In this document: piece by piece, positions 2,431 to 27,591 of the stretch
How the letters are laid out: each line of letters starts with the position of its first letter
Numbering within the stretch: position 1 is the first letter of the stretch
Source: Oscillospiraceae bacterium
Lineage (GTDB): Bacteria > Bacillota > Clostridia > Oscillospirales > Ruminococcaceae
NCBI GenBank assembly: GCA_017555565.1
Contig: JAFZGF010000070.1
Coordinates: forward strand, 1 to 33,481
DNA length: 33,481 nucleotides
Direction: 5' to 3'
Made by a program: the position numbers and the translations under genes
The notes under the pieces: generated by a model
The model's database searches: none
The model's input: only the letters and a program-made list of their open reading frames with translations
Told to the model about the DNA's origin: nothing

Positions 2431-3462
2431 ATGAGAGAAGTTATCAAAACAGCAGCTACAGTTGATGAAGCCATCGCTCTTGCTCTGGTTGAACTGCAGC
2501 TCCCAAGAGAAAAAGTAACCTGCGAAGTTCTCCAGTATCCTGAAAAGAAATTCTTCGGTTTCAAAAAAATACCTGCACAGGTTAAAGTAAGCGAACTGGA
2601 AGAAGCTTTCAGCGTAAAGGATATCTTTGCAGATAAAAAAGAACCTGCAAAACAGCAGGCTCCAAAGGCTAAAAAAGAACAGCCTAAAAAAGAAAACAAA
2701 AAAGAAACAAAACAGCAGCCAAAACAGGAAAAAGCTCCAAAAGCTGAAAAACCTGCAAAAGCTGAAGTTAAAGAAACAAAGCAGGAAGTTAAAGAAGAAG
2801 TTAAACCTGTTGTTGAAACAGTGGAAGAAACAGTTGTTTCCTATGACGAACTTTCCGAAAAAGCAAAATACGCTATGGACTTCCTTGAAAGTGTAATCAG
2901 CCAGTTCCACAAAGGCAACTACACTCTCACTCCAGTTAAAAGCGAAACTGGTTATGTTATCAAAATCAGCGGCGAGGACGCAGGCGCACTTATCGGCAGA
3001 AAAGGCGAAACAATGGAAGCTCTCTCCTACCTGACAGGCCTTGCAGCAAACCGCTCTGATGACAGCTTTGAAAAAATCAGCGTTGACGTGGCTGACTACC
3101 GTCAGAAACGTGAAAAAGACCTGGAAGCAGCAGCTAAAAAAGCAGCTGCAAAAGTTCTGAAGTCTGGCCGTCCATTCGGCTTTGAACCAATGAACCCATA
3201 CGACCGCCGCATCATTCACGCAGCAATCTCACAGATCGAAGGCGTTAAGAGTGAATCCAAAGGCGAAGGCGCAAGCCGTCGTGTAATGGTTTATTCCACA
3301 ACACCAAAACCACGCAACAACGACAAAAAAGGCGGCAAAAAGCCTTACAACAAAAACAACAGACAGAGAAAAGAAAAGGCTGCACCACAGGCACAGAAAA
3401 CCAGAGAAGAAAAACTGATTGACGAATCCTCATTCGGCCTTTACTCAAAAATCGAACTGTAA
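2431..3462 (+). CDS. jag: Jag/KhpB RNA-binding protein (Jag_N, KH, R3H)
   Basis: This 343-residue cytoplasmic RNA-binding protein of the Jag/KhpB/EloR family is usually encoded next to yidC and is linked to cell elongation in Gram-positives. Domains: Jag_N at about 1-55 (EEAIALAL-like start, KKFFGFKKIPAQV), a long Lys/Glu/Gln-rich linker at about 70-135, a KH domain at about 150-225 with the GxxG-type loop LIGRKGETMEAL, and an R3H domain at about 225-290 with R-x3-H in DRRIIHAAI. A basic low-complexity tail follows (about 295-330, KKGGKKPYNKNNRQRK). It is the last gene of the operon and is followed by a strong terminator. Confidence 0.94.
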   Translation: MREVIKTAATVDEAIALALVELQLPREKVTCEVLQYPEKKFFGFKKIPAQVKVSELEEAFSVKDIFADKKEPAKQQAPKAKKEQPKKENKKETKQQPKQEKAPKAEKPAKAEVKETKQEVKEEVKPVVETVEETVVSYDELSEKAKYAMDFLESVISQFHKGNYTLTPVKSETGYVIKISGEDAGALIGRKGETMEALSYLTGLAANRSDDSFEKISVDVADYRQKREKDLEAAAKKAAAKVLKSGRPFGFEPMNPYDRRIIHAAISQIEGVKSESKGEGASRRVMVYSTTPKPRNNDKKGGKKPYNKNNRQRKEKAAPQAQKTREEKLIDESSFGLYSKIEL

Positions 3463-3848: not shown

Positions 3849-4109
3849 CTTTTTTACGCTGCGCTGGCGTTACTTTCTTTGAAGAAAGTAACCAAAAGCG
3901 CGTGGAAGCGTAGCGCCCGAGCGGCAATAACATCAAAGTGTTCATTATTACCCCAAAATCCCGTTGTACCCATAAGGTAATCTGTTATTTGAAATACTCC
4001 ATAAACCGCCAAATAGGGCCTTTATTTCCCTTTTACAAACATTTTTCTTGCATACTGCAAAAATTTGGTTTATATTTAAATTAACTATAACCCACGGGGG
4101 AGATATAAT

Positions 4110-4967
4110 ATGACTTTCTACGAAATATATAAATCCAGAAAAGACAACCTTGCCCAGCGCATACGCGAATCCAAAAGTCTGTATGAAACCGGCAGCGTAA
4201 TCAGCGAAGTTTTTGAAACAATGCAGTATCAGTATCTCAGCCAGGAAGGCAACGCCTCACAGACTGAAAAACTGACAGACCTTGTAAATATGGCAAAAAC
4301 CGCCTTTCCTTTGCTGGAAAGTGTAAGCAAGTACAAACTGTGGGAAGATGCTGAAAAAACCCCTAAAAAGAAAAAAAGCCTTATGCCAGGCTTTATTACA
4401 CTGCTTATAGGCCTTGCATTTGTTTTTGGCCCACTGGGTTACTATATGTTCCTCTACAATGTAAAGCTGGAAAAAATGCAGAACTTTATGCTGGCAATGG
4501 CTGTAGGCTGTCTGCTTATTCTTATTGCAGGCTTTATGCTGTTCTTCCGCAGAAAAGTAAAATCAAAGGCAACTGTGGAAATTTCTGTTGATGCAGACGA
4601 TATTGTAAAACGTCTGGAAGATATGGTAAAACACATTGATACCCTGCTGGCAAAGGAAAAACAGTCACAGAAAATCACCCAGCAGCTTATGGACAGCGCC
4701 ATCAATGCTGACGAAGCACAGCTGTTCTCCTATCTTATGGAAGCCAAGCTGTCTGCCGATGCAGACTTTGCCCTGGAACAGCTGGACGAAGTGGAACGCT
4801 ACCTGGCAAAACAGGATGTTATGCTGGTAAAATACATCAAAGGCAACGAAAAATACTTTGACTTCCTTGAAGGCGAAGAAACAAAGACTATCCGTCCTGC
4901 CCTTGTTCGCGGTGGCGAAATGCTGACAAAGGGCCTGGCACAGCTGAAATACGGCGAAAAAATATAA
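4110..4967 (+). CDS. Hypothetical protein with two transmembrane helices
   Basis: I do not recognise this 285-residue protein. GGGGGAG about 10 bases before the ATG supports the start. It has a soluble, charged N-terminal region (1-90) ending in a Lys-rich stretch (TPKKKKSL). Two membrane helices follow (about 92-113 and 122-145) joined by a short loop. A helical, charged C-terminal region (about 150-285) contains KRLEDMVKHIDTLLAKEK, likely coiled coil. Near the end is YFDFLEGEETKTIRPALVRGG, which recurs in poorly characterised Firmicute proteins. With both termini probably cytoplasmic, it could be a membrane-anchored scaffold, but this is only inferred. It is monocistronic with its own terminator. 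Confidence 0.8.
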   Translation: MTFYEIYKSRKDNLAQRIRESKSLYETGSVISEVFETMQYQYLSQEGNASQTEKLTDLVNMAKTAFPLLESVSKYKLWEDAEKTPKKKKSLMPGFITLLIGLAFVFGPLGYYMFLYNVKLEKMQNFMLAMAVGCLLILIAGFMLFFRRKVKSKATVEISVDADDIVKRLEDMVKHIDTLLAKEKQSQKITQQLMDSAINADEAQLFSYLMEAKLSADADFALEQLDEVERYLAKQDVMLVKYIKGNEKYFDFLEGEETKTIRPALVRGGEMLTKGLAQLKYGEKI

Positions 4968-5640: not shown

Positions 5641-6360
5641 TTAAACATCCTGAATGTGCGTTCCAAGGCCAGAATTCCACAAAATTGCACCGGTGCAATC
5701 GCTATGATTTTCCCATATTTCAACAAAAGTGCATTCAGCGGTAATATCAGTGCATACTGTGCAGTGGCCGATTATCACACAGTTGTTGGTATGAAACTAA
5801 AATCCATATGCCAGAACCTTGTGGAAAAGTATCCCGGTTACAGCTTCGTACCTTTTGTGGACGCTTCTCCCGTTGACGAGGTGGATATGTGTGTAAAGGC
5901 TGGCCTGGGTGTAAAAGGCAAAAACAGCCTGCTTATCACTCCGCAGTTCGGCAGCTGGGTGTTTATCGGCGAAATACTCACCGATATGCCGCTGGATACT
6001 GTCTGCTATGAAGACAAGGGTTGCCTTGATTGCGGTCTGTGTGCAAAAGCCTGCCCTGGCGGTGCCATCGGCTGTGGCGTCATCACCGAAAAATGTGCCA
6101 GCCATATCAGCCAGAAAAAAGGAGAACTAACACTGGAAGAAACAGATATACTGGCCCGCGCCCACACGGTTTTCGGCTGTGATATCTGCCAGACAGTCTG
6201 CCCGATGAACAAAAAAGTGGAAGAAGCTCCAAACCTTTTCTCTGATGATATCTTTTCAACAGTTACGGCAGAAAATGTGGAAAACATCTACAAATCCCGT
6301 CCATTCGGCTGGCGCGGGCTGAAAGTATTGCAGAGAAATATAGAGATTTACAACAAATAA
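5581..6360 (+). CDS. Short QueG-like (epoxyqueuosine reductase family) iron-sulfur protein
   Basis: The 259-residue protein resembles the core of QueG, the cobalamin and Fe-S enzyme that converts epoxyqueuosine to queuosine in tRNA. Recognisable blocks are FVDASPVDE (about 97-105; the Asp matches the family's catalytic VDSAP), KAGLGVKGKNSLLITPQFGSW, and a double-cluster ferredoxin region CLDCGLCAKACPGGAI (about 147-162) and CDICQTVCPMN. It is shorter than Escherichia coli QueG (about 380 residues): the N-terminus is trimmed and the HEAT-like C-terminal part is absent. That fits the short form common in Firmicutes, whose function is less certain. The start is GTG at 5581, with GAGG 10 bases upstream. 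The start codon lies inside a consensus DnaA box. Confidence 0.8.
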   Translation: MDKILSKHHIYHFGCVSFQHLNILNVRSKARIPQNCTGAIAMIFPYFNKSAFSGNISAYCAVADYHTVVGMKLKSICQNLVEKYPGYSFVPFVDASPVDEVDMCVKAGLGVKGKNSLLITPQFGSWVFIGEILTDMPLDTVCYEDKGCLDCGLCAKACPGGAIGCGVITEKCASHISQKKGELTLEETDILARAHTVFGCDICQTVCPMNKKVEEAPNLFSDDIFSTVTAENVENIYKSRPFGWRGLKVLQRNIEIYNK

Positions 6361-6414
6361 CAGCGTAGGCCACGTGGGACATCCCTGCCGGACTATTTAA
6401 AACAACAAATATGG

Positions 6415-6690
6415 TGCAGGGGACGGTTCCCCGTCCCGTATTCCAAAAATGAAGTTTATCCAACCCGTTAAAAACCCACAGACTAAAACTCTGTCATTCT
6501 GAACGCAGTGAAGAATCTATGCACTGAAGCAACCGTGAAAGCACAGCTTTTTATATTTCTGCCACAGCGAAGATCCTTCGTCTGCGCTTTGCTTCGCTCA
6601 GGATGACATTTTTCTGCTTTAAACTGACACGCTGTCATTCTGGGCAGACTTTGTCTGTGAAGATCCCGCGTCTGCTTTCACCGGCGTAGG
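6415..6690. repeat. Intergenic repeat block
   Basis: The 360 bases between the QueG-like gene and the HAD gene hold repeats only. GGGACGGTTCCCCGTCCC-type hairpins are near 6418-6437, and several GTCATTCTGA...GAAGAATC or TTCGTC...AGGATGACA units lie at about 6492-6675. No ORF here is credible. Confidence 0.7.
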
Positions 6691-19990: not shown

Positions 19991-20021
19991 AAAAAGAACG
20001 GAGAATTCTCCGTTCTTTTTT
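19991..20021 (-). terminator. Terminator after rtcB
   Basis: The near-perfect palindrome AAAAAGAACGGAG...CTCCGTTCTTTTT lies at the rtcB stop codon. It closes the WYL/Y-RNA/Ro60/RtcB region. Confidence 0.88.
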
Positions 20022-21219
20022 AATTTGCTTTAAAGTTATACACAGGTTTCAGTATTTCGATAATATCCACAGTTTCATCAATCACATCGATAATATCCGC
20101 CATTGATTTATATGCCATAGGCGCTTCGTCAATGGTGTTTTCGTTTACTGATGTGGTGTAGATACCGGACATTGTTTGCTGATATTCAGTCATATCCAGC
20201 TTTTCTTTTGCCTGTTTGCGGGACATCAGCCTGCCTGCGCCGTGCGGGGCGGAATAGTTCCAGTCAGGGTTGCCTTTACCAACAGCAAGTATACTGCCGT
20301 CGCGCATATTTATCGGTATCAGCACCTTTTCACCTTTGTGGGCGGCGATTGCTCCTTTTCGCAGAATCATTTCATCAGTATCAATATAGTTATGGATTGT
20401 GTGGAAGGCTTCACCTGCCACAAGACCTGCACGGTCTATCAGTATTTCAGCAATCTTTTCTCTGTTTCGTGTGGCAAACTGCTGGCAGATTTCTATATCG
20501 TGGATATAGTCATCGAAAAATCTGCCGTAAAGGTAGCACAAATCCTCTGGGATAGTAGTTTCTTTTTTATCAATGGAAATTTCTTCCAGTGCTTTCTGAA
20601 TTTCCTTTCTTCGGCCTTGTTCTTTGTATGTGCGGATAATTTCATCACGTCTGTCAAAATAATCTTCCATACCTTTGTTCAGGTCAATTGCCAGCTGCTG
20701 ATATATTTCTGCCACCTGCTTGCCAAGGTTACGGCTGCCAGTGTGGATAACCAGATAGTTTGTACCGTCAGATGCACGGTCAACTTCAATAAAATGGTTG
20801 CCGCCACCAAGAGTGCCAAGGCTTCTTTCCAGCCTTTTTGTATTTTTCAGCTGTCGGTAGCAGCGCAGTGCTTCAAGGTCAAACTTTTCCTGTCTGCCTT
20901 CCCACACATTTTTGCCGGAAGGGACAAAGTGTGCTGCCGCATCCAGCTTTTCAAAGTCTATTTCGCCTTTGCCGATGTTTATTGTATACATACCACAGCC
21001 GATATCCACGCCTACGATATTTGGCACAGCTTTGCCGTGTACTGTCATTGTAGTGCCGATTGTACAGCCTTTGCCAGCGTGTACGTCAGGCATAATGCGG
21101 ATAATGCTGTTTTCTGTAAAGTCGTAGTCGCACATACGGCGTATCTGGGCTACGGCTTCATCTTCCACCACCTTTGCATAGCAGATGGCGGTATTTATTT
21201 TACCTTTTATTTCAAGCAT
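20020..21219 (-). CDS. rtcB: RtcB-family RNA-splicing/repair ligase
   Basis: The 399-residue ligase belongs to the RtcB family, which joins 2',3'-cyclic phosphate or 3'-phosphate RNA ends to 5'-OH ends using GTP and Mn2+. Metal-binding and guanylation motifs are present: DVHAGKGCTIGTTMTV, VGVDIGCGMY, GGGNHFIEVD, VIHTGSRNLGKQVAE, and SAPHGAGRLMSR, whose His is the expected GMP-linked residue. It is somewhat shorter than Escherichia coli RtcB (408). AAAGGAAA before the ATG supports the start. It lies 18 bases after ro60, so the two are co-transcribed. The setting with Ro60 and tRNA-like RNAs suggests repair or processing of broken structured RNA. No rtcA cyclase is present. Confidence 0.93.
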   Translation of the reverse strand: MLEIKGKINTAICYAKVVEDEAVAQIRRMCDYDFTENSIIRIMPDVHAGKGCTIGTTMTVHGKAVPNIVGVDIGCGMYTINIGKGEIDFEKLDAAAHFVPSGKNVWEGRQEKFDLEALRCYRQLKNTKRLERSLGTLGGGNHFIEVDRASDGTNYLVIHTGSRNLGKQVAEIYQQLAIDLNKGMEDYFDRRDEIIRTYKEQGRRKEIQKALEEISIDKKETTIPEDLCYLYGRFFDDYIHDIEICQQFATRNREKIAEILIDRAGLVAGEAFHTIHNYIDTDEMILRKGAIAAHKGEKVLIPINMRDGSILAVGKGNPDWNYSAPHGAGRLMSRKQAKEKLDMTEYQQTMSGIYTTSVNENTIDEAPMAYKSMADIIDVIDETVDIIEILKPVYNFKAN

Positions 21220-21237: not shown

Positions 21238-22740
21238 CTATGCCGCAATTTTTGCATAGCGCTCACTTTCCAGAACTTCCATCATCAATGTGTAAGGAGA
21301 AACGATATCTCCTGCCACCATAGAAAAGATTCTTGGGTTGGCACCGGACACCAGGGCTACACCCTGCTCATTCATTCTTACAGGCTGCTGGCGGTTACGG
21401 CTGGCAACATTCCAGAAAACCACCTGTGGCAGTTTATAGCCGTAGCGTGCAAACTTTGCCTTCGCTTTTTCAAAGTTTGTGATGGAAGCACCGTCCATAC
21501 AGCCGTCAAATTCCATATCGGATATTATAATTATTTTAGCAGGCAATTCCTGCTGTGTCACCTGATTTGTCACAGCAGTGCTGAGAATCAGGTCAAAAAC
21601 TGCCTCGAGATTTGTATTTGCCACTTCATTGAAAGATGCCACATACTGTAATTTGTCTGCAAAGGTTTCACCTTTGATTTCAATCAGCTGTGGGCGGCTT
21701 GAAAACTCGATAAAGTGATTGGCAAACACACCTTTATTTCTCTGGGCAAAGTACAGACCAAGGGACAGTGCCACTGCCGCAGGCATCGGTTTTGCCTGCC
21801 AGTACATAGAGCCGGAGGTGTCTACAACTGCAATAGCATTTTCATCACCGCCAAAGTCTGGCAGGCTGTTCCAGGTGGCATTGAGGGATGCTTTTTCCTT
21901 TTCAGACATTTCTTTAAGAAAACCATACTCCCTGTCATACCAGCCGCCTTCACGCAGAAATGGCTGTACCAGTTCATAAGGCATCACATTGGAGGCATTC
22001 AGTTTTGCTGTGCTTTTTCCCACATTGGACAGAAAACTGTCATAGCGGTCAGCATCGTTGCGCATAAAGGCTTTGCGGTATTTCAGCAGTGCCTTCGATG
22101 GCTGTTTTTCATAGTCAAAGGAGTAATCCTTTTGACGCAGATTATTTTCAATAATACGGATGTGACTGCGCAGATGTGCCAGTGTTTTTCTGTACAGGGA
22201 ATCCTGCATACCCATTGCACGGGCAATGATTTTTGCATTTTTCACTGTATCAGCATTGGATGCATTTACAGATGGCAGCCATTTTGCCAGCAGGGAAACC
22301 TGACCGCCATTACTGAGGGCTTTGATATCAGCTGTAAGCTGGCTTTTGATATAATCAAGAGCATCCTGCTGACAGGCTGTGCCAAAGAGGGACAGCAGGT
22401 CGTCGTAACGGCCGTATTCTGCGATATATTCAATATTTTTCTTTACGGTCTGTGGATGGTTTTCTGCAAGCCAGTTCATTACCACGCGGAAAACCTTTCT
22501 TTCACCCAGACCGCCTCTGATATCTCTTGCAAAAAAGAGCAACTTCATTGCAATATCAGGATTTTCTGTGAAAGCGCGGATAAAACGTGTGATGATTTCT
22601 TTGTCATCTGCGTGGCGCAGTGCGCCGATTGTACCAAACAGGTCAAGACATTCGCTGTTTGTGGAAGCATATGTAATAGCACCGTTTTCTGTATATGTCA
22701 TATTGGCTGCGTTTTTAAGATATTTCAACATGAAATTCAC
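21238..22740 (-). CDS. rsr: Ro60 ortholog (Rsr), TROVE and vWA domains
   Basis: The 500-residue protein is a bacterial Ro60/Rsr: a ring of TROVE HEAT repeats (about 1-320) that binds Y RNA on its outside and misfolded RNA ends in its hole, followed by a vWA domain (about 320-500). The start MNFMLKYLKNAANMTYTENG and DLFGTIGALRHADDKEIITRFIRAF fit TROVE. The metal-ion adhesion site is VVDTSGSMYW (DxSxS). AAAGGAG just upstream fixes the start at 22740. It follows an array of tandem structured RNA modules and precedes rtcB, an order like rsr-yrlBA-rtcBA of Salmonella but with the RNAs in front. Confidence 0.94.
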   Translation of the reverse strand: MNFMLKYLKNAANMTYTENGAITYASTNSECLDLFGTIGALRHADDKEIITRFIRAFTENPDIAMKLLFFARDIRGGLGERKVFRVVMNWLAENHPQTVKKNIEYIAEYGRYDDLLSLFGTACQQDALDYIKSQLTADIKALSNGGQVSLLAKWLPSVNASNADTVKNAKIIARAMGMQDSLYRKTLAHLRSHIRIIENNLRQKDYSFDYEKQPSKALLKYRKAFMRNDADRYDSFLSNVGKSTAKLNASNVMPYELVQPFLREGGWYDREYGFLKEMSEKEKASLNATWNSLPDFGGDENAIAVVDTSGSMYWQAKPMPAAVALSLGLYFAQRNKGVFANHFIEFSSRPQLIEIKGETFADKLQYVASFNEVANTNLEAVFDLILSTAVTNQVTQQELPAKIIIISDMEFDGCMDGASITNFEKAKAKFARYGYKLPQVVFWNVASRNRQQPVRMNEQGVALVSGANPRIFSMVAGDIVSPYTLMMEVLESERYAKIAA

Positions 22741-22764
22741 TCCTTTTTGATAAATTCATTCTTC

Positions 22765-22825
22765 CAAGGCACCTTTACTTTTTTCTATTTATAGTATGTA
22801 AATTCAATTTGCTGTCAGTGCCTTT
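22765..22825 (-). ncRNA. Y-RNA-like module H (last before ro60)
   Basis: The 61-base module is on the minus strand. The closing stem is AAGGCAC (22824-22818) with GTGCCTT (22772-22766). The shared motif CAGCAAA follows the 5' arm after three bases. An inner stem TTTAC/GTAAA (22802-22798 with 22778-22774) lies inside. It is the smallest module, a simple stem-loop, ending 24 bases before the ro60 start, close enough to influence its translation. Confidence 0.7.
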
Positions 22826-22829
22826 TATA

Positions 22830-22943
22830 CAAGATGCATGGTATTAATCCAGCGCGGGTTCCCACCGCGCAAAAGTCTGTCTATAAAACAGGTGACTCTT
22901 TGTCAGTCAATGGAGAAACTTTAAGTCTGCTGTGTGCATCTTT
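22830..22943 (-). ncRNA. Y-RNA-like module G with tRNA-like cloverleaf
   Basis: The closing stem is AAGATGCA (22942-22935) with TGCATCTT (22838-22831), then CACAGCAGA. Inside is a cloverleaf. The acceptor-like stem is TCCA/TGGA (22914-22911 with 22851-22848), then TT where tRNAs have U8. The D-like arm is TGACT, a 7-base loop, AGTCA (22909-22893). The anticodon-like arm is CTGT, loop TTTATAG, ACAG (22891-22877). The T-like arm is GCGCGG, loop TGGGAAC, CCGCGC (22870-22852), joined directly to the acceptor-like stem. There is no CCA end, so it is a mimic, not a tRNA. Confidence 0.75.
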
Positions 22944-22954
22944 CCTGCGGTTAA

Positions 22955-23058
22955 CAAGACGCCAGCCCTATGTGTTTGTACACTTCAGACCTGTAAAACA
23001 GTCCGTTAGTGGGTCTCTTTTTGTCCAGAAAAGTCTATGGGTTGCTGCAGGCGTCTTT
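22955..23058 (-). ncRNA. Y-RNA-like module F
   Basis: The closing stem is AAGACGCC (23057-23050) with GGCGTCTT (22963-22956), 8 bp, followed by TGCAGCAAC. Inner elements include CTTTT-7-AAAAG, a GACC/GGTC region and GTGT-ACAA-ACAC. CCC near the start can pair with GGG near the end. It does not fold into the same clear cloverleaf as A and G. Confidence 0.7.
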
Positions 23059-23066
23059 CATTTTTG

Positions 23067-23137
23067 CAAAGCACATTTTTTCACAATTGATTTCACAGAG
23101 GAATCAGTGCGTGAGAATATTTGCTGTATGTGCTTTT
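23067..23137 (-). ncRNA. Y-RNA-like module E
   Basis: The closing stem is AAAGCACAT (23136-23128) with ATGTGCTTT (23076-23068), up to 9 bp. The shared CAGCAAAT follows the 5' arm. An inner TCAC/GTGA and TGATT/AATCA make a stem-loop. The A-rich strand before the 3' arm (GTGAAAAA) matches the AAA strand in modules A, B, D and H. Confidence 0.7.
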
Positions 23138-23148
23138 CCTTCTTACCA

Positions 23149-23228
23149 CAAAGCGCGTTTAGTGTTAAAATCAGTACATAAAAACTGTTACAGAAATAAT
23201 AAGAACACTGTTTGCTGTGTGCGCTTTT
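23149..23228 (-). ncRNA. Y-RNA-like module D
   Basis: The closing stem is AAAGCGC (23227-23221) with GCGCTTT (23156-23150). The 5' arm is followed by ACACAGCAAAC, then inner stem AGTGTT (23209-23204) with AACACT (23166-23161), then AAAC and the 3' arm. The internal loop is therefore ACACAGCAAAC facing AAAC. The apical part is a simple U-rich hairpin. Confidence 0.75.
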
Positions 23229-23256
23229 CATAATTGTATTGGTCTGTGCAGATTTC

Positions 23257-23354
23257 AAAGTGCCTGCCGTGTACTGATTTCTCCCGTCACACGGCGGCTT
23301 TGATTCGGCATGCCGTCATCTACTTTCTGCAAGGCCAGATACAACCCCGGCATT
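23257..23354 (-). ncRNA. Structured RNA segment C, divergent
   Basis: This part lies between modules B and D and does not fit the array consensus fully. AATGCC (23354-23349) could pair with GGCACTT (23264-23258) with one bulge, and its 3' end reads GCACTTTG like the others. The 5' motif is TTGCAGAAA instead of CAGCAAA and sits further inside. It contains a GCCGTGT/ACACGGC stem and the palindrome CGGCATGCCG. It may be a degenerate module or another RNA. Confidence 0.4.
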
Positions 23355-23355
23355 C

Positions 23356-23440
23356 CAAGGCTCCTTTAATAGACTACCTCCGGTGGAGTTTCCTCTAAAC
23401 CGGCATCCTGACTTTTTGCGATTTGCTGCAAGAGCCTTTG
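23356..23440 (-). ncRNA. Y-RNA-like module B
   Basis: The closing stem is AAGGCTC (23438-23432) with GAGCCTT (23363-23357), then TTGCAGCAAATC. Inside, CCGGT/ACCGG (23403-23399 with 23384-23380) encloses GAG-GAAA-CTC, a stem capped by a GNRA tetraloop. TTAAA precedes the 3' arm, matching the AAA side of the other modules. It begins only 2 bases after module A ends. Confidence 0.72.
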
Positions 23441-23442
23441 TT

Positions 23443-23546
23443 CAAGATACGTTTTAAACACCAGTATGGATTTGCACCATACACTTTCCGGTTATGAGCC
23501 GGACGGTCTTACAGCCAATGGTGAGATATTTGCTGTGGGTATCTTT
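23443..23546 (-). ncRNA. Y-RNA-like module A with tRNA-Met-like cloverleaf
   Basis: The closing stem is AAGATAC (23545-23539) with GTATCTT (23450-23444), then CCACAGCAAA. The cloverleaf has acceptor-like CACCA/TGGTG, TT linker (U8-like), D-like arm GGCTGTAAGACC, and anticodon-like TCCGG-CTCATAA-CCGGA (loop as in tRNA-Met, CAT). The variable region AAGT and T-like arm GTATGG-TGCAAAT-CCATAC follow. Position 55 of the T-loop is G instead of U. The predicted transcription start (about 23548) lies at the 5' end of the closing stem. There is no 7-bp acceptor stem or CCA end, so it mimics tRNA like known YrlA RNAs. Confidence 0.82.
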
Positions 23547-23555
23547 GTTGATTTT

Positions 23556-23599
23556 ATGATACTACCAATATTTTCCATTATCACGGAAAAAAAGTTGCG
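23556..23599 (-). promoter_or_regulatory. Promoter of the RNA array and ro60-rtcB, shared-element copy 2
   Basis: A 22-bp sequence (plus strand TTATCACGG, seven A, GTTGCG; 23578-23599) is identical to 25824-25845. On the minus strand it ends in GTGATA, a possible -35. Sixteen bases after the element comes TATCATAAAAT (-10 TATCAT, 23561-23556). The start point should be about 23548, at the first base of module A's stem. The identical copy before the WYL operon suggests control by a WYL protein. Confidence 0.7.
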
Positions 23600-23626
23600 A
23601 ACATTTTTATTGTCCGCAACTTTTTT
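23587..23626 (-). terminator. Terminator after the WYL operon
   Basis: On the minus strand AGTTGCGGACA and TGTTCGCAACT pair around ATAAAAA and are followed by a T-run. The stop codon of the second WYL gene lies in the loop. The 3' arm is also part of the next promoter element. Confidence 0.85.
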
Positions 23627-24518
23627 GTTTTATAAGTCTTTCTTTTATTAAATTGATAAATGAATCCGGGCTGGTCACCTTTATCATAGGACCAAAGGAC
23701 AAAACTCGGATAAGCAGTTCAGTTTCGTCGTCCTTGTCGTAGGTAACTGTTATTTTATATCGGTTGTCTGCCAGTTTTTCAGCCTGCTTTTCAAAATGGG
23801 CAAAGTGCATAAGCGCTCTTTCCAAAGCATTTCTTTCATCAGTCAGCTGGAAAACAACAGTTTCTTTATCTCGGACCATCTTTGTATTTGTGTTAGGTGT
23901 ATAAGGCTTTACATATGGGTGGCACCATATAATGCGTCCCATATTCACCACAGTTGCCCATCTGCCGCCAGAACCCACCACTCGGAATTTGTCATCCTTT
24001 TCAGAGTATTCCATATACTGTGGCAGAAAAACAATATATTTTTCTTCGCCTTTGTTGTTTTTGGTGGTCAGTTTTACAGGGTACTGTCTGTTTATGGCAT
24101 CCAGCATAAGACGGAAATTATTTATGTATTTTTCATCTTCATAGGGGTCTCCGTCTGCATATTTGTCAAACACGCAGATATCATCCGGGGCAAACAACGG
24201 CTCAACATCCCACAAATCAGAAAAATCCTCTCCGAACAGTTTTACTCTTGGGTCAAGTGATATTGCCTTCAGCCATCTTTTTTCCAGCGTGGTAAGAGGC
24301 AACGATGGTTTGTTTTCCAGCGGTGTATCACCATTTTTTGTGACCAGCTGCCATTTTTCGTTGAAAAGGGAATTTTCAATATTTATACTGCTTTCGCCAA
24401 AGGCGGATTCTTCCACGATTTTTCTTATATCTTTGGGAGTAACCGTTTTTTCCACGGCTTTTGCCAGAATTTTTGAAACAGCATTATAATATGCGCCATA
24501 AATTTCATTAAAAAACAT
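23607..24518 (-). CDS. WYL-domain transcriptional regulator (second of pair)
   Basis: I read this 303-residue protein as a WYL-type regulator, mainly from its pairing and fold pattern. The N-terminal half contains DIRKIVEESAFGESSINIE and LTTLEKRWLKAISLDPRV. The central part, YPVKLTTKNNKGEEKYIVFLPQYMEYSEKDDKFRVVG, corresponds to the WYL sheet that binds a ligand or nucleic acid. A C-terminal WCX-like region ends RVLSFGPMIKVTSPDSFINLI. It starts in a TAATG overlap with the upstream gene, so both are translated together. WYL proteins often regulate defence and RNA-repair genes. Its terminator merges with the promoter of the RNA array. Confidence 0.75.
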   Translation of the reverse strand: MFFNEIYGAYYNAVSKILAKAVEKTVTPKDIRKIVEESAFGESSINIENSLFNEKWQLVTKNGDTPLENKPSLPLTTLEKRWLKAISLDPRVKLFGEDFSDLWDVEPLFAPDDICVFDKYADGDPYEDEKYINNFRLMLDAINRQYPVKLTTKNNKGEEKYIVFLPQYMEYSEKDDKFRVVGSGGRWATVVNMGRIIWCHPYVKPYTPNTNTKMVRDKETVVFQLTDERNALERALMHFAHFEKQAEKLADNRYKITVTYDKDDETELLIRVLSFGPMIKVTSPDSFINLIKERLIKQKSCGQ

Positions 24519-25759
24519 TACTGCTCACCGCCTTCCAGACCATAAAGTTGGTACATTGCAGATATATCATCTTTAAACTGTTTTTCAACATCTTTGTTGG
24601 AAAAACTGATGTCTGTAATCCTGCAGATAAATGTTCTTATCCACGGTATCACTTCTGTACTGTCATAAATATCAGCAGAAAATCTGCTGGTATTGTTATC
24701 TATTCTCTCCACAGTGCCACAGCGTTTTTCTCGCAGCAGCCTGTTGTGGATATGCTGTTCATTGTCGCCATATGTTACTGTGAATTCAATATGCTCAATT
24801 CTTTCATTGCTTCTGCCCTGGGTACTTACGCCCCACATATGCCGCTGCATATTTGTCAGAGTATCACGCAAACTATCAAAATCTTCACAAATATCCCCCA
24901 GCACAACCGAATCAACACGGTCTATTCTGAAAGATGTTATTCTGTCAAAGCGTGGCGCATAGGCCAGCAGATGCTGTCGGCCATTCTGTACACTTATAAA
25001 CACCTTCAGCGGTACAACGTGATTTTCTGTAATTGTTTCCTTGCGGCGGTTAATGGTGTTTAAAGTTATCTGTCGTTTCTGTCTGATGGCATCAAAAATC
25101 TGGTACAGAATTTCGCTGTCCATTGCAGAGGTTATGTAATGATGCTTGAAAGCGAAATGCTTTTTGTGGTTTCCAACTCTGTCCAAAATATATGAACCAA
25201 CCACACCGCAAGGCGCAACTTCCGAGAAAAAGTCCAGGCAGTCTGTTCCGCAGAACATTGTATTGTCACTACGTCTGTAATACATTGTTTTACCATGTTT
25301 TTCCGGGATTATCAGTCCCTGGGCAATGTATTCTTTTAGCTTTTTGCGCACTGTGGATTCATCAAATTCCATAGGTGTTTCAAAAGCAGACAGTTTTTCT
25401 TCTATTCTGTCAATTATTTCGCTTATAGACAGGGAAACTTCTGTATCGTACAGTATATCAAAAAGAATAAAGTGCAAAGTTATGTCTTTATCAGTAAAAC
25501 TTTTTGCTTTCCATCCCTTGTACAAAGGATTGTGGTTGGACAAGCGGCTGTCTATGGAGATAAACACATTCTTGCCTTCCGCAGACTGGCGGAACTGCAT
25601 ATATTCACCCAACCAGCTTTCTATTCTGCGGCGTTCATCATCATAGGAGCGGGTACTTTTAGCATTGTATTCTTCACGGCTCTTGAAACCATATACAAAA
25701 AACTGGCGCATATAATCTCTGCTTCGGTTGAAATTTTTAATCAGTTCACTGTATGCCAT
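24518..25759 (-). CDS. WYL-domain transcriptional regulator (first of pair)
   Basis: The 413-residue protein starts MAYSELIKNFNRSRDYMRQF. A winged-helix-like region lies at about 85-160 (SISEIIDRIEEKLSAFE, ESTVRKKLKEYIAQGLI). A WYL domain follows at about 225-300 (RQKRQITLNTINRRKETITENHVVPLKVFISVQNGRQHLLAYAP) and a WCX-like C-terminal part at about 315-405. AGGAGG 7 bases before the ATG supports the start. It overlaps the second WYL gene by one base. The 22-bp element shared with the RNA array lies upstream, so one or both proteins may autoregulate and control the ro60-rtcB operon. Confidence 0.85.
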   Translation of the reverse strand: MAYSELIKNFNRSRDYMRQFFVYGFKSREEYNAKSTRSYDDERRRIESWLGEYMQFRQSAEGKNVFISIDSRLSNHNPLYKGWKAKSFTDKDITLHFILFDILYDTEVSLSISEIIDRIEEKLSAFETPMEFDESTVRKKLKEYIAQGLIIPEKHGKTMYYRRSDNTMFCGTDCLDFFSEVAPCGVVGSYILDRVGNHKKHFAFKHHYITSAMDSEILYQIFDAIRQKRQITLNTINRRKETITENHVVPLKVFISVQNGRQHLLAYAPRFDRITSFRIDRVDSVVLGDICEDFDSLRDTLTNMQRHMWGVSTQGRSNERIEHIEFTVTYGDNEQHIHNRLLREKRCGTVERIDNNTSRFSADIYDSTEVIPWIRTFICRITDISFSNKDVEKQFKDDISAMYQLYGLEGGEQ

Positions 25760-25801: not shown

Positions 25802-25845
25802 ATTATCTCATAAAAGATAGGTTTTATCACGGAAAAAAAGTTGCG
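25802..25845 (-). promoter_or_regulatory. Promoter of the WYL operon, shared-element copy 1
   Basis: The 22-bp element (25824-25845) is identical to 23578-23599. Sixteen bases further on the minus strand comes GATAATAAAAT (-10 GATAAT, 25807-25802), matching TATCATAAAAT at the other copy. Unlike copy 2, it is not part of a terminator hairpin, so its conservation is not explained by termination. Confidence 0.7.
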
Positions 25846-26030
25846 TATTTACTTTAATAATATACTGAATTTCTAAAATAAGCAATTATCTGCTCAAAAC
25901 ACAACAAATTTGTGAAATTTTTTATAAAACTTAACATCTTGCCTCCTTTTTTCGGCTACAGATGAAGAAGTATAACAAAATACATTTAGTTTTGTGTACT
26001 GTCTTCAATCTGAAGAAAGGAGGTATTAAT

Positions 26031-26211: not shown

Positions 26212-26286
26212 TCAAACCTACGAAAAAACGGGTGCATATATAAGTTCATATAAAATCACATAAACGGGATGTATATTGTTATTTTG

Positions 26287-26320
26287 AGGGATGGTCGCAA
26301 AATCACCCCTCTTTTTATTT
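26287..26320 (+). terminator. Terminator after the truncated ychF-start ORF
   Basis: GAGGG and CCCTC pair (with an additional TG/CA step) around a loop and are followed by TTTTTATTT. Confidence 0.65.
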
Positions 26321-26360
26321 CACACCGGTTATTGTAATCTGATGTAGGTTACCGCCATTT

Positions 26361-26380
26361 GTTACCCAAATTGTTACCCG
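26361..26380. repeat. GTTACCC repeat, left copy
   Basis: GTTACCCAAATTGTTACCCG resembles GTTACCCGATTTGTTACCCG at 28363-28382 with two differences. The pair brackets the methyltransferase and endonuclease genes inside the 19-bp repeats. Confidence 0.55.
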
Positions 26381-26406
26381 GGTAACAAATTGAAGGAATG
26401 AAAAAT

Positions 26407-26444
26407 AAAAAGCCGTATTGTAGTAATACGGCTTTTGTTGTTTT
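26407..26444 (+). terminator. Terminator upstream of the methyltransferase gene
   Basis: GCCGTATT-GTAGT-AATACGGC is followed by TTTTGTTGTTTTC. It insulates the restriction-modification genes from upstream transcription. Confidence 0.8.
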
Positions 26445-26502
26445 CGACCATTCGACCGAAAATAAAAATATATGAGTTTATGCAATTGATATTACAATAT
26501 AC

Positions 26503-26531
26503 TAGACAACAAGTTATTTATATGTTATAAT
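26503..26531 (+). promoter_or_regulatory. Promoter of the DNA methyltransferase gene
   Basis: TAGACA (26503-26508), a 17-base spacer and TATAAT (26526-26531) form the promoter. A CTAG tetranucleotide (26502-26505) overlaps the -35. If the system recognises CTAG, methylation could feed back on this promoter. Confidence 0.7.
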
Positions 26532-26559
26532 TGTATTTATCAACTATAAAGGAGTTTTT

Positions 26560-27591
26560 ATGATAACTACTCATAAAATATATAATACAAATTCTAACGA
26601 TATGATTTGCATTCCCGACAAATCGATACAACTTATTGTTACGTCACCACCATATCCAATGATTGAAATGTGGGATGAAATGTTCAAAGAACAATCTCCT
26701 GTAATAAAGGAACACTTTAATAACAAGGATTACGACTTAGCTTTTGAAGAAATGCATCGATTACTCGATGCAATTTGGTGCGAATGTGACAGAGTTTTAG
26801 CCGATAACGGTTTTGTCTGTGTAAATATTGGAGATGCTACAAGAACAGTAAACGAATCCTTTAAAATGTTCTCTAATCATTCAAGAATTATACAAACATT
26901 TATTAATATGGGATATACTGTCCTTCCCGATATATTGTGGCATAAACAATCAAATGCCCCAAACAAGTTTATGGGCTCTGGTATGTACCCTGCAGGTGCT
27001 TATGTAACTTATGAACACGAATATATCTTAATATTCAGAAAAGGTGGGAAACGAGTTTTCAAAGGATCCGAAAGATCTATACGCCAAGAAAGTGCATATT
27101 TTTGGGAAGAACGAAATATTTGGTTTTCTGATTTATGGGAAATTAGAGGAACTTCTCAAAATATATCTAAAGTCAATTCATCACGTGCACGAAACGCGTC
27201 ATTTCCATTGGAAATTCCTTATCGATTAGTAAATATGTACTCCGTAAAAGGAGATACTGTATTAGATCCCTTTTGTGGACTTGGTACAACAATCTTGGCT
27301 TGTATGGCTTCCCAACGAAACAGCATAGGTATAGAAGTCTCTAAAGAGATTTCTGAACTTGCAACAATCAACATTAATGAGAACGCAAAAGTTTTAAACA
27401 ACCTTATAAAAAATCGAATAAAATCACATAATGAATTTATAGAAACACTTAACGAAGAAAAATTACAAAAATGTTATAAGAACACCCCTCATGGCTTTTT
27501 GGTAAAGACAAAACAAGAAACAGCTCTTCATATAAAAGAATTAGGTAATATATCGTATGACAACGGAAACTTCATTTGTGATTATAAATAA
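26560..27591 (+). CDS. N4-cytosine DNA methyltransferase (CTAG-type partner of MjaI family)
   Basis: The 343-residue methyltransferase has the catalytic motif IV first, TSPPYP (about 29-34, the SPPY form typical of N4-cytosine enzymes). The AdoMet-binding motif I, DPFCGLGTT (about 233-241), is near the C-terminal side, the beta-class order. AAAGGAG 5 bases before the ATG supports the start. It stands tail to tail with a putative MjaI-like endonuclease and would protect host DNA. Its AT-rich composition differs from its neighbours and suggests horizontal transfer. Confidence 0.9.
   Translation: MITTHKIYNTNSNDMICIPDKSIQLIVTSPPYPMIEMWDEMFKEQSPVIKEHFNNKDYDLAFEEMHRLLDAIWCECDRVLADNGFVCVNIGDATRTVNESFKMFSNHSRIIQTFINMGYTVLPDILWHKQSNAPNKFMGSGMYPAGAYVTYEHEYILIFRKGGKRVFKGSERSIRQESAYFWEERNIWFSDLWEIRGTSQNISKVNSSRARNASFPLEIPYRLVNMYSVKGDTVLDPFCGLGTTILACMASQRNSIGIEVSKEISELATININENAKVLNNLIKNRIKSHNEFIETLNEEKLQKCYKNTPHGFLVKTKQETALHIKELGNISYDNGNFICDYK

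Follow-up and report, generated by a model that had tools for sequence, protein, structure and literature searches.

The minus strand of contig JAFZGF010000070.1 from an Oscillospiraceae bacterium (GenBank assembly GCA_017555565.1), whose 33,481 nucleotides (nt) we refer to as the window, carries a tandem array of seven RNA modules at positions 22765-23546. The reading that we favor, with a probability of roughly 0.77, is that this array encodes Y-RNA-like small RNAs that serve as dedicated partners of the protein encoded next to it, a divergent Ro60-like ring with DUF2828 and DUF7788 domains, within an RNA repair operon that includes RtcB. Comparative sequence analysis establishes the modules, their covariation, their linkage to DUF2828, their tRNA mimicry and a conserved promoter-like block. 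Rows of such modules stand in front of the Ro60-like gene in many gut bacteria and in some of their viruses, and probably act together with the protein and the RNA repair enzyme.

A covarying RNA family tied to DUF2828

An earlier note on this DNA, made from the letters alone, had placed seven minus-strand modules in this region, and both a regular-expression search and a covariance model, R1, recover them there (Table 1). Each module follows the consensus A-A-A-R-N-N-N-C-NN-R-C-A-G-C-A ... G-N-N-N-Y-T-T-G and, exactly as had been claimed, the arms are complementary (ATAC/GTAT, GCTC/GAGC, GCGC/GCGC, GCAC/GTGC, ACGC/GCGT, ATGC/GCAT and GCAC/GTGC in modules A, B and D to H, respectively) and the lengths range from 61 to 114 nt. 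R1 was built from 64 modules, four from the window and one each from 60 of 80 GTDB loci that encode relatives of the downstream protein. Chosen as the top 80 among 556 confirmed relatives, hence close relatives, these loci seem to include at least one duplicate, L005 and L073 apparently coming from one genome.

Within the 80 loci, the strict 5' motif occurs on the gene strand 238 times in 194,547 upstream bases versus 3 times in the 435,835 bases made up of the gene and what follows it, and complete modules number 225 upstream versus 1 in the gene and downstream, with at least one in 78 loci. When the arms were left unrestricted, 232 of 265 CAGCA sites were followed by the exact complement of their own arm and then TTG; the complement of another module's arm was found at a mean of only 20.8 sites (maximum 28 in 50 rounds), and redealing the arms, many of which are identical, gave a mean of 51.9 and a maximum of 69.

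In the 64-module alignment the eight-pair stem, of which seven pairs entered the selection and the eighth did not, is paired in 97.5% of cells versus 82.6% in shuffles, and changes on both sides occur in 105 cells versus 33. In the covariation table, pairs changed on both sides and further pair types were not above the shuffles, and the other three measures were. The innermost pair played no role in the selection; it is present in 49 of 62 modules (5 as G-U) with all four Watson-Crick types represented, and in a larger set it is Watson-Crick in 169 of 234 and G-U in 12. Changes in the arms are nearly all transitions (R-Y, R-Y, Y-R, R-Y, C-G), the first and last arm positions being restricted by the search pattern. 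The strand facing CAGCA has 50-65% A at four positions, in keeping with the A-rich strand described earlier. On the strength of these sequence comparisons, the modules are a real, conserved and covarying RNA family, and chance is excluded.

A covariance-model search of relatives, of the kind that the earlier note had proposed, finds modules in all 80 GTDB loci: at E≤0.01, R1 gives 276 matches, all on the gene strand and 274 of them upstream of the gene (by eye), partly by construction, as 60 of the loci contributed to the model, and with rough E-values from a short calibration. With a model-free pattern (7-nt arm, RCAGCA, complement), the gene strand gives 274 matches spread over 79 loci, of which 258 are upstream, and the opposite strand gives 27 matches in 21 loci. 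The number of modules per locus ranges from one to eight, so that the array of seven, for which the earlier note knew of no equal, is near the top of the range and is not unique. Among 120 genomes including that of the window, scanned for modules with stricter filters, DUF2828 is present in 11, and modules were found in the same 11 genomes on the same contigs; the other 109 have neither at the thresholds used. A 299-genome sample of the phylum added three further DUF2828 genomes, all with modules. At four TROVE loci from this sample, R1 found nothing convincing (best E 0.71), and the 7-nt-arm pattern gave 0, 1, 2 and 1 matches on both strands, about the background level. Judged from these genomes, the module family is tied to DUF2828. 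The loci L191 and L192 contain long arrays in which modules start about 1.6 kb upstream of the gene and the stretches between CAGCA sites include some with no R1 match.

The family extends to phages. In a collection of 50,697 phage records, 682 (duplicates counted) have a tblastn match to the DUF2828 protein. From 252 IMG/VR loci the best 80 were used, and several of the 80 look like near-duplicates. In this set, 205 of 206 R1 matches at E≤5 lie on the gene strand, and at E≤0.01 R1 matches 55 of these loci (identifiers read by eye) and 5 of 12 named phages. A general pattern, devised after the named phage loci had been inspected, occurs on the gene strand in 11 of the 12 named phages (32 matches) versus one locus (1 match) on the opposite strand; with 6-nt arms the counts are 12 loci (33 matches) versus 5 (5), and the sole match in KVP40, which requires 6-nt arms, is at background level. 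In the IMG/VR loci the general pattern occurs in 73 on the gene strand (209 matches) and in 11 on the opposite strand (11 matches). Scrambled cores gave 11-22 matches over all 92 viral and phage loci compared with 241 for the real core. The position of the modules differs among phages: two Listeria phages have three modules upstream of the gene, Staphylococcus phage 6ec and mycobacteriophage Tyson have modules just downstream of it, and FelixO1 (L202, ~5710-6545) has four CAGCA modules downstream of the DUF2828 gene, interleaved with phage tRNA genes. The drum RNA motif, which is found near phage tRNAs and is included in Rfam, was considered as an identity for the modules and rejected, as none of 12 bacterial loci and none of 14 viral or phage loci gave such a match.

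tRNA mimicry within the modules

In a set of 234 modules (227 from the GTDB loci and 7 from the window), 47 contain T-arm-like hairpins and 46 contain anticodon-arm-like hairpins, whereas 100 dinucleotide shuffles gave means of 0.55 (maximum 3) and 3.0 (maximum 7), respectively. T-arms are present in 46 of 80 array spans versus none of 80 stretches of matching length that run on from the gene start. A list of 34 T-arm modules supplied 24 for one alignment (A3) and 8 for another (A4), two being omitted (L029:4281-4383 and L040:4085-4178); the L088 row of A3 is a false T-arm. RNAalifold applied to the 24 aligned modules returned D, anticodon and T stems, with a kept change on both sides in 13 of 22 pairs. 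In the stems outside the selection, such changes were found in 2 of 4 pairs of the D stem and 5 of 5 pairs of the anticodon stem; the acceptor stem has about 3-4 pairs (by eye). In addition, among 12 module-rich loci, 11 R1 modules in 9 loci score above the cut-off of the Rfam tRNA model (RF00005), six spanning just the inner part of the model (positions 4-67 to 7-64 of 71) and five spanning positions 1-71. These alignments and model scores indicate that a tRNA mimic is contained in many of the modules, most often as a D-anticodon-T fold whose acceptor stem is short.

In the window, the interior of module A is tRNA-like, with a D region, a CTCATAA anticodon-like arm and a T-like arm, and it scores 23.6 bits against the Rfam tRNA model at 23457-23524, short of the gathering cut-off of 29. 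Over the whole window, ARAGORN predicted no tRNA and Rfam had no match at its gathering threshold, and an E-value scan of 22700-23650 returned 10 weak matches, including tRNA, each under the cut-off of its family.

A second topology is seen in some phage modules (Table 1), which are circularly permuted: a T-arm is followed by the acceptor hairpin and then a D-arm, and the module stem stands where a tRNA has its anticodon stem. When topology was scored by neighboring hairpins, the 46 GTDB T-arm modules comprised 2 permuted (at least one of which, in L088, is false), 15 canonical and 29 unassigned, and the 16 viral and phage T-arm modules comprised 5, 3 and 8, respectively. With normal and permuted mimics under one closing element, the effector part of the modules looks exchangeable.

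The Ro60-like protein, promoter and neighboring genes

The earlier note had called the adjacent gene ro60, a name that stands as to fold and fails as to family. The AlphaFold model of the DUF2828 protein has its best match in Ro60/Rsr over the full length, with 10-16% identity over the structural matches to Ro60/TROVE proteins, and the predicted structure has the ring of HEAT-like helical repeats and the vWA domain of that family. In contrast, Pfam TROVE (PF05731) has no match in this protein, although the same search gives 59.5 and 54.7 bits for two TROVE proteins, no TROVE match was found in this genome at E≤1e-10, and a PDB sequence search with an 11-protein profile did not find Ro60. By the model the protein would thus be a divergent Ro60-like ring, and an identity as Ro60/Rsr proper is not supported. 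The rtcB gene reported beside it is indeed there. Among the 80 GTDB loci, some of which have short flanks, 60 encode RtcB, and in 50 it follows the DUF2828 gene on the same strand; RtcB was seen at one of the 80 viral loci, though the Listeria phages do carry one close by.

The array is preceded by a conserved box with the consensus TTCGCA[AG]NTTTTTTTCC. In a loose form it is present at 63 of the 80 GTDB loci (66 copies), whereas both strands of 435,755 control bases give 3 matches, and a TANNNT hexamer starts 40 nt after the full box in 59 of 59 related loci. The motif of the first module follows within 90 nt of the box in 33 loci and starts at 54-55 nt in 22 of them; therefore, the predicted transcript of these loci begins at or near module 1. 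A scan of the minus strand between the array and the gene found no credible terminator, the one call being the T-arm of module A. Since the promoter lies just before the first module and no credible terminator precedes the gene, the array and the DUF2828 gene are probably one transcription unit, as had been supposed. The box is also found ahead of a two-gene WYL regulator, which we take to be a PafBC-like arrangement, suggesting that this regulator controls itself; a DNA search of the same genome found no third near-exact copy, and a PDB search with both proteins of the pair gave no match.

Table 1. Positions in the window of the array, its promoter and adjacent genes, and permuted modules of phage loci.
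Feature	Position	Strand	Basis
Module A, first in array	23443..23546	-	R1 32.3 bits; fold z -2.4
Module B	23356..23439	-	R1 39.4 bits (member of model); fold z -1.7
Structured non-R1 element between modules B and D	23229..23354	-	Folds alone, z -2.6; no R1 match
Module D	23149..23228	-	R1 40.4 bits (member of model); fold z -1.2
Module E	23067..23137	-	R1 42.9 bits (member of model); fold z -2.2
Module F	22955..23058	-	R1 32.9 bits; fold z -1.9
Module G	22830..22943	-	R1 29.1 bits; fold z -4.0
Module H, last in array	22765..22825	-	R1 45.1 bits (member of model); fold z -2.1
DUF2828+DUF7788 protein, predicted Ro60-like fold (HEAT-like helices and vWA)	21238..22731	-	Pfam; AlphaFold 2 (AF2) model; Foldseek and VIA-align
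RtcB RNA ligase	20020..21219	-	Pfam PF01139, E=5.5e-56
-10 hexamer TATCAT, 40 nt after box start	23556..23561	-	TANNNT at this offset in relatives
Conserved promoter box TTCGCAACTTTTTTTCCGTGA, probable regulator site	23581..23601	-	2 in window versus 0.01 expected
Second gene of regulator pair, no Pfam match	23607..24518	-	tblastn match in 67/80 loci
WYL-domain regulator	24518..25759	-	Pfam PF13280, E=9.2e-8; tblastn match in 66/80 loci
Second box copy, 1 mismatch to pattern, upstream of WYL pair	25827..25847	-	Pattern search
Permuted phage modules, examples	FADO L196:1496-1623; Enterococcus phage L207:3431-3553; L115; L152

For the element between modules B and D, blastn at E≤1 found no relative among the 80 GTDB loci; it is possibly a second type of module.

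Proposed mechanism and alternative explanations

The scheme that we propose for co-transcription, processing, binding, control and function is as follows. The array, the DUF2828 gene and rtcB would be transcribed together from one promoter under the upstream WYL pair, which, because it has the same box, probably regulates itself as well. The transcript would probably be cut between modules, one of two fates that the earlier note had suggested, the other being use as a multi-site scaffold. Each of the separate RNAs may bind one DUF2828 ring through the internal loop formed by RCAGCA and the A-rich strand, by analogy with the way Y RNAs sit on Ro60 via their basal stem; this loop, already singled out in the earlier note, is retained as the likely binding element. 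The module interior would then be the variable effector part, recruiting or imitating partners that handle tRNA, and the resulting ribonucleoproteins (RNPs) may keep enzymes that handle tRNA, or tRNA-like baits, close to the ring while RNA damage is repaired, with RtcB presumably repairing tRNAs cut in the anticodon loop. Two folding results are weak points of the array: the array folded as one piece barely beats shuffles (z -1.5), and the folding of single modules is uneven, from z -1.2 for module D to z -4.0 for module G.

The nearest known RNAs are those of the YrlA family (RF02553) and their partner Rsr, with which the modules share a basal stem made from paired ends, in many modules a tRNA-like domain, a gene adjoining one for a Ro60-fold protein and, in some bacteria, RtcB. 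Each locus for YrlA-type Y RNAs reportedly has one or more RNAs with a tRNA-like domain, and a permuted domain (T - acceptor hairpin - D) is shared by the Y RNAs of two TROVE loci and some modules of DUF2828 phages. This common anatomy and the permuted tRNA domains would be expected if the modules were true YrlA-family Y RNAs of a true Ro60 that have diverged in sequence. Nevertheless, we consider this unlikely, since Pfam does not place the protein in TROVE, this genome lacks any RF02553 match at E≤0.001, R1 recognizes none of the four TROVE loci convincingly and, at the two with permuted Y RNAs (L188 and L189, by eye), the closing element is unlike that of the modules, so that an assignment to the YrlA type is not supported. 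The modules instead close with RCAGCA against an A-rich strand in a stem ending in YTTG, occur in arrays of up to eight and have DUF2828, rather than TROVE, as partner. Moreover, the common Clostridial mimic keeps the normal order and the anticodon arm and is joined via its acceptor end, whereas the YrlA domain consists of D, T and acceptor arms in the available part of a review (PMC8394870); therefore, the common Clostridial form differs in topology. At L188, two tandem Y-RNA-like genes lie upstream of the TROVE gene (~4040-4260, minus strand), the second with a permuted tRNA domain and neither with an Rfam match at the gathering threshold.

The Salmonella rsr-yrlBA-rtcBA operon, which is sigma54-dependent, offers a further comparison. 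As in the part of its description available to us (PMC7790460), a Ro60-type protein, tRNA-like RNAs and RtcB occur together in the window; unlike in Salmonella, the array precedes the protein gene, and a WYL pair and a sigma70-type -10 hexamer take the place of RtcR, although no search for RtcA or RtcR was made here.

A different function would be that of a decoy array, in which the tRNA-like arms, carried on the DUF2828 ring, bait or inhibit anticodon nucleases or other toxins that attack tRNAs, and RtcB reseals the real tRNAs. The loops are suggestive in this respect: 34 of 224 hairpins with five pairs and a seven-nucleotide loop have the sequence YTNNNAA, compared with 1.0 (maximum 4) of 49 in shuffles, and position 36 is U in 17, A in 16 and C in 1, in line with real tRNAs of the t6A and i6A modification classes. 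The variety of arms inside one array and the DUF2828 genes adjoining tRNA clusters in several phages point the same way, and inhibition of anticodon nucleases has been raised as a possible role of YrlA (Hughes et al. 2020, PMC7790460, in the part available). However, the available part of that paper also indicates that the YrlA tRNA-like domain is not a nuclease substrate, several anticodon loops of the best-conserved tRNA-like class are shorter than 7 nt or lack U33 (by eye), and many modules have no tRNA feature by the patterns used. On balance we regard a decoy function as rather improbable.

The position of the array between promoter and gene, with no more than 60 nt between the end of the last module and the start codon in 56 of 78 loci, would also suit a cis-acting leader that remains in the DUF2828-rtcB mRNA and through which DUF2828 controls its own translation or the decay of the mRNA. 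This is quite improbable, given that phage modules can follow the gene, as in Staphylococcus 6ec, FelixO1 and Tyson, or be placed among tRNA genes, and that tRNA-like cores and up to eight modules exceed the needs of a leader. Finally, the large tRNA arrays beside some related loci might suggest chance or a repeat artefact, such as a decayed tRNA array or a mobile repeat, which the covariation, the linkage to DUF2828, the strand bias and the fixed promoter spacing refute.

Y RNAs have been proposed before in one phage of this group. The available text on Listeria phage CKA15 (PMC12282133, mSystems 2025) reports very abundant non-coding RNAs upstream of CKA15_055 and Rsr as the best HHpred match of its product, and its authors suggest Y RNAs; CKA15_055 is the gene at the DUF2828-family match in CKA15. 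We find three modules in this phage, at ~25,290-25,550, whereas the one published RNA region with a position in the available text is 26,236-26,727; because the two do not coincide, the link between those RNAs and the modules is only suggestive. No motif, array or general family is described in the available text of that account. A survey of jumbo phages describes TROVE proteins with a tRNA-like partner (PMC7824862, in the part available). In the literature as far as it was accessible, we found no description of the RCAGCA element, the tie to DUF2828 or the arrays, although earlier Y RNA studies (Chen 2014, Sim and Wolin 2018, Sim 2020) could include DUF2828 loci or arrays; a search for DUF2828 returned only plant papers, judged by title.

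Carried further, the findings allow a tentative proposal to which we give less than even odds: a second Ro60-type RNP system that would run parallel to TROVE and Y RNA and be common among phages and Clostridia. Its DUF2828 ring would read the RCAGCA stem-loop and carry several different tRNA-arm mimics at once, serving in the cleavage and repair of tRNAs as a multi-headed bait or a bench. DUF2828, a domain of unknown function, would thereby gain a fold, a class of RNA partner and a testable binding motif, and the theme of Ro60, tRNA mimic and RtcB would gain what looks like a divergent branch with RNA arrays and its own WYL-type control. The distribution of DUF2828 includes uncharacterized plant and fungal proteins, which, if such a system exists, become candidate Ro60-like RNA binders.

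Two further observations concern individual loci. Mass spectrometry of purified particles of phage CKA15 detected CKA15_055 (Table 1 of PMC12282133, in the available text), and the Ro60-like protein may thus ride in the virion. Just upstream of the DUF2828 locus L033, a ROOL RNA (2677-3251, 310 bits) lies inside a long tRNA array, and L036 has a long tRNA array similar to that of L033.
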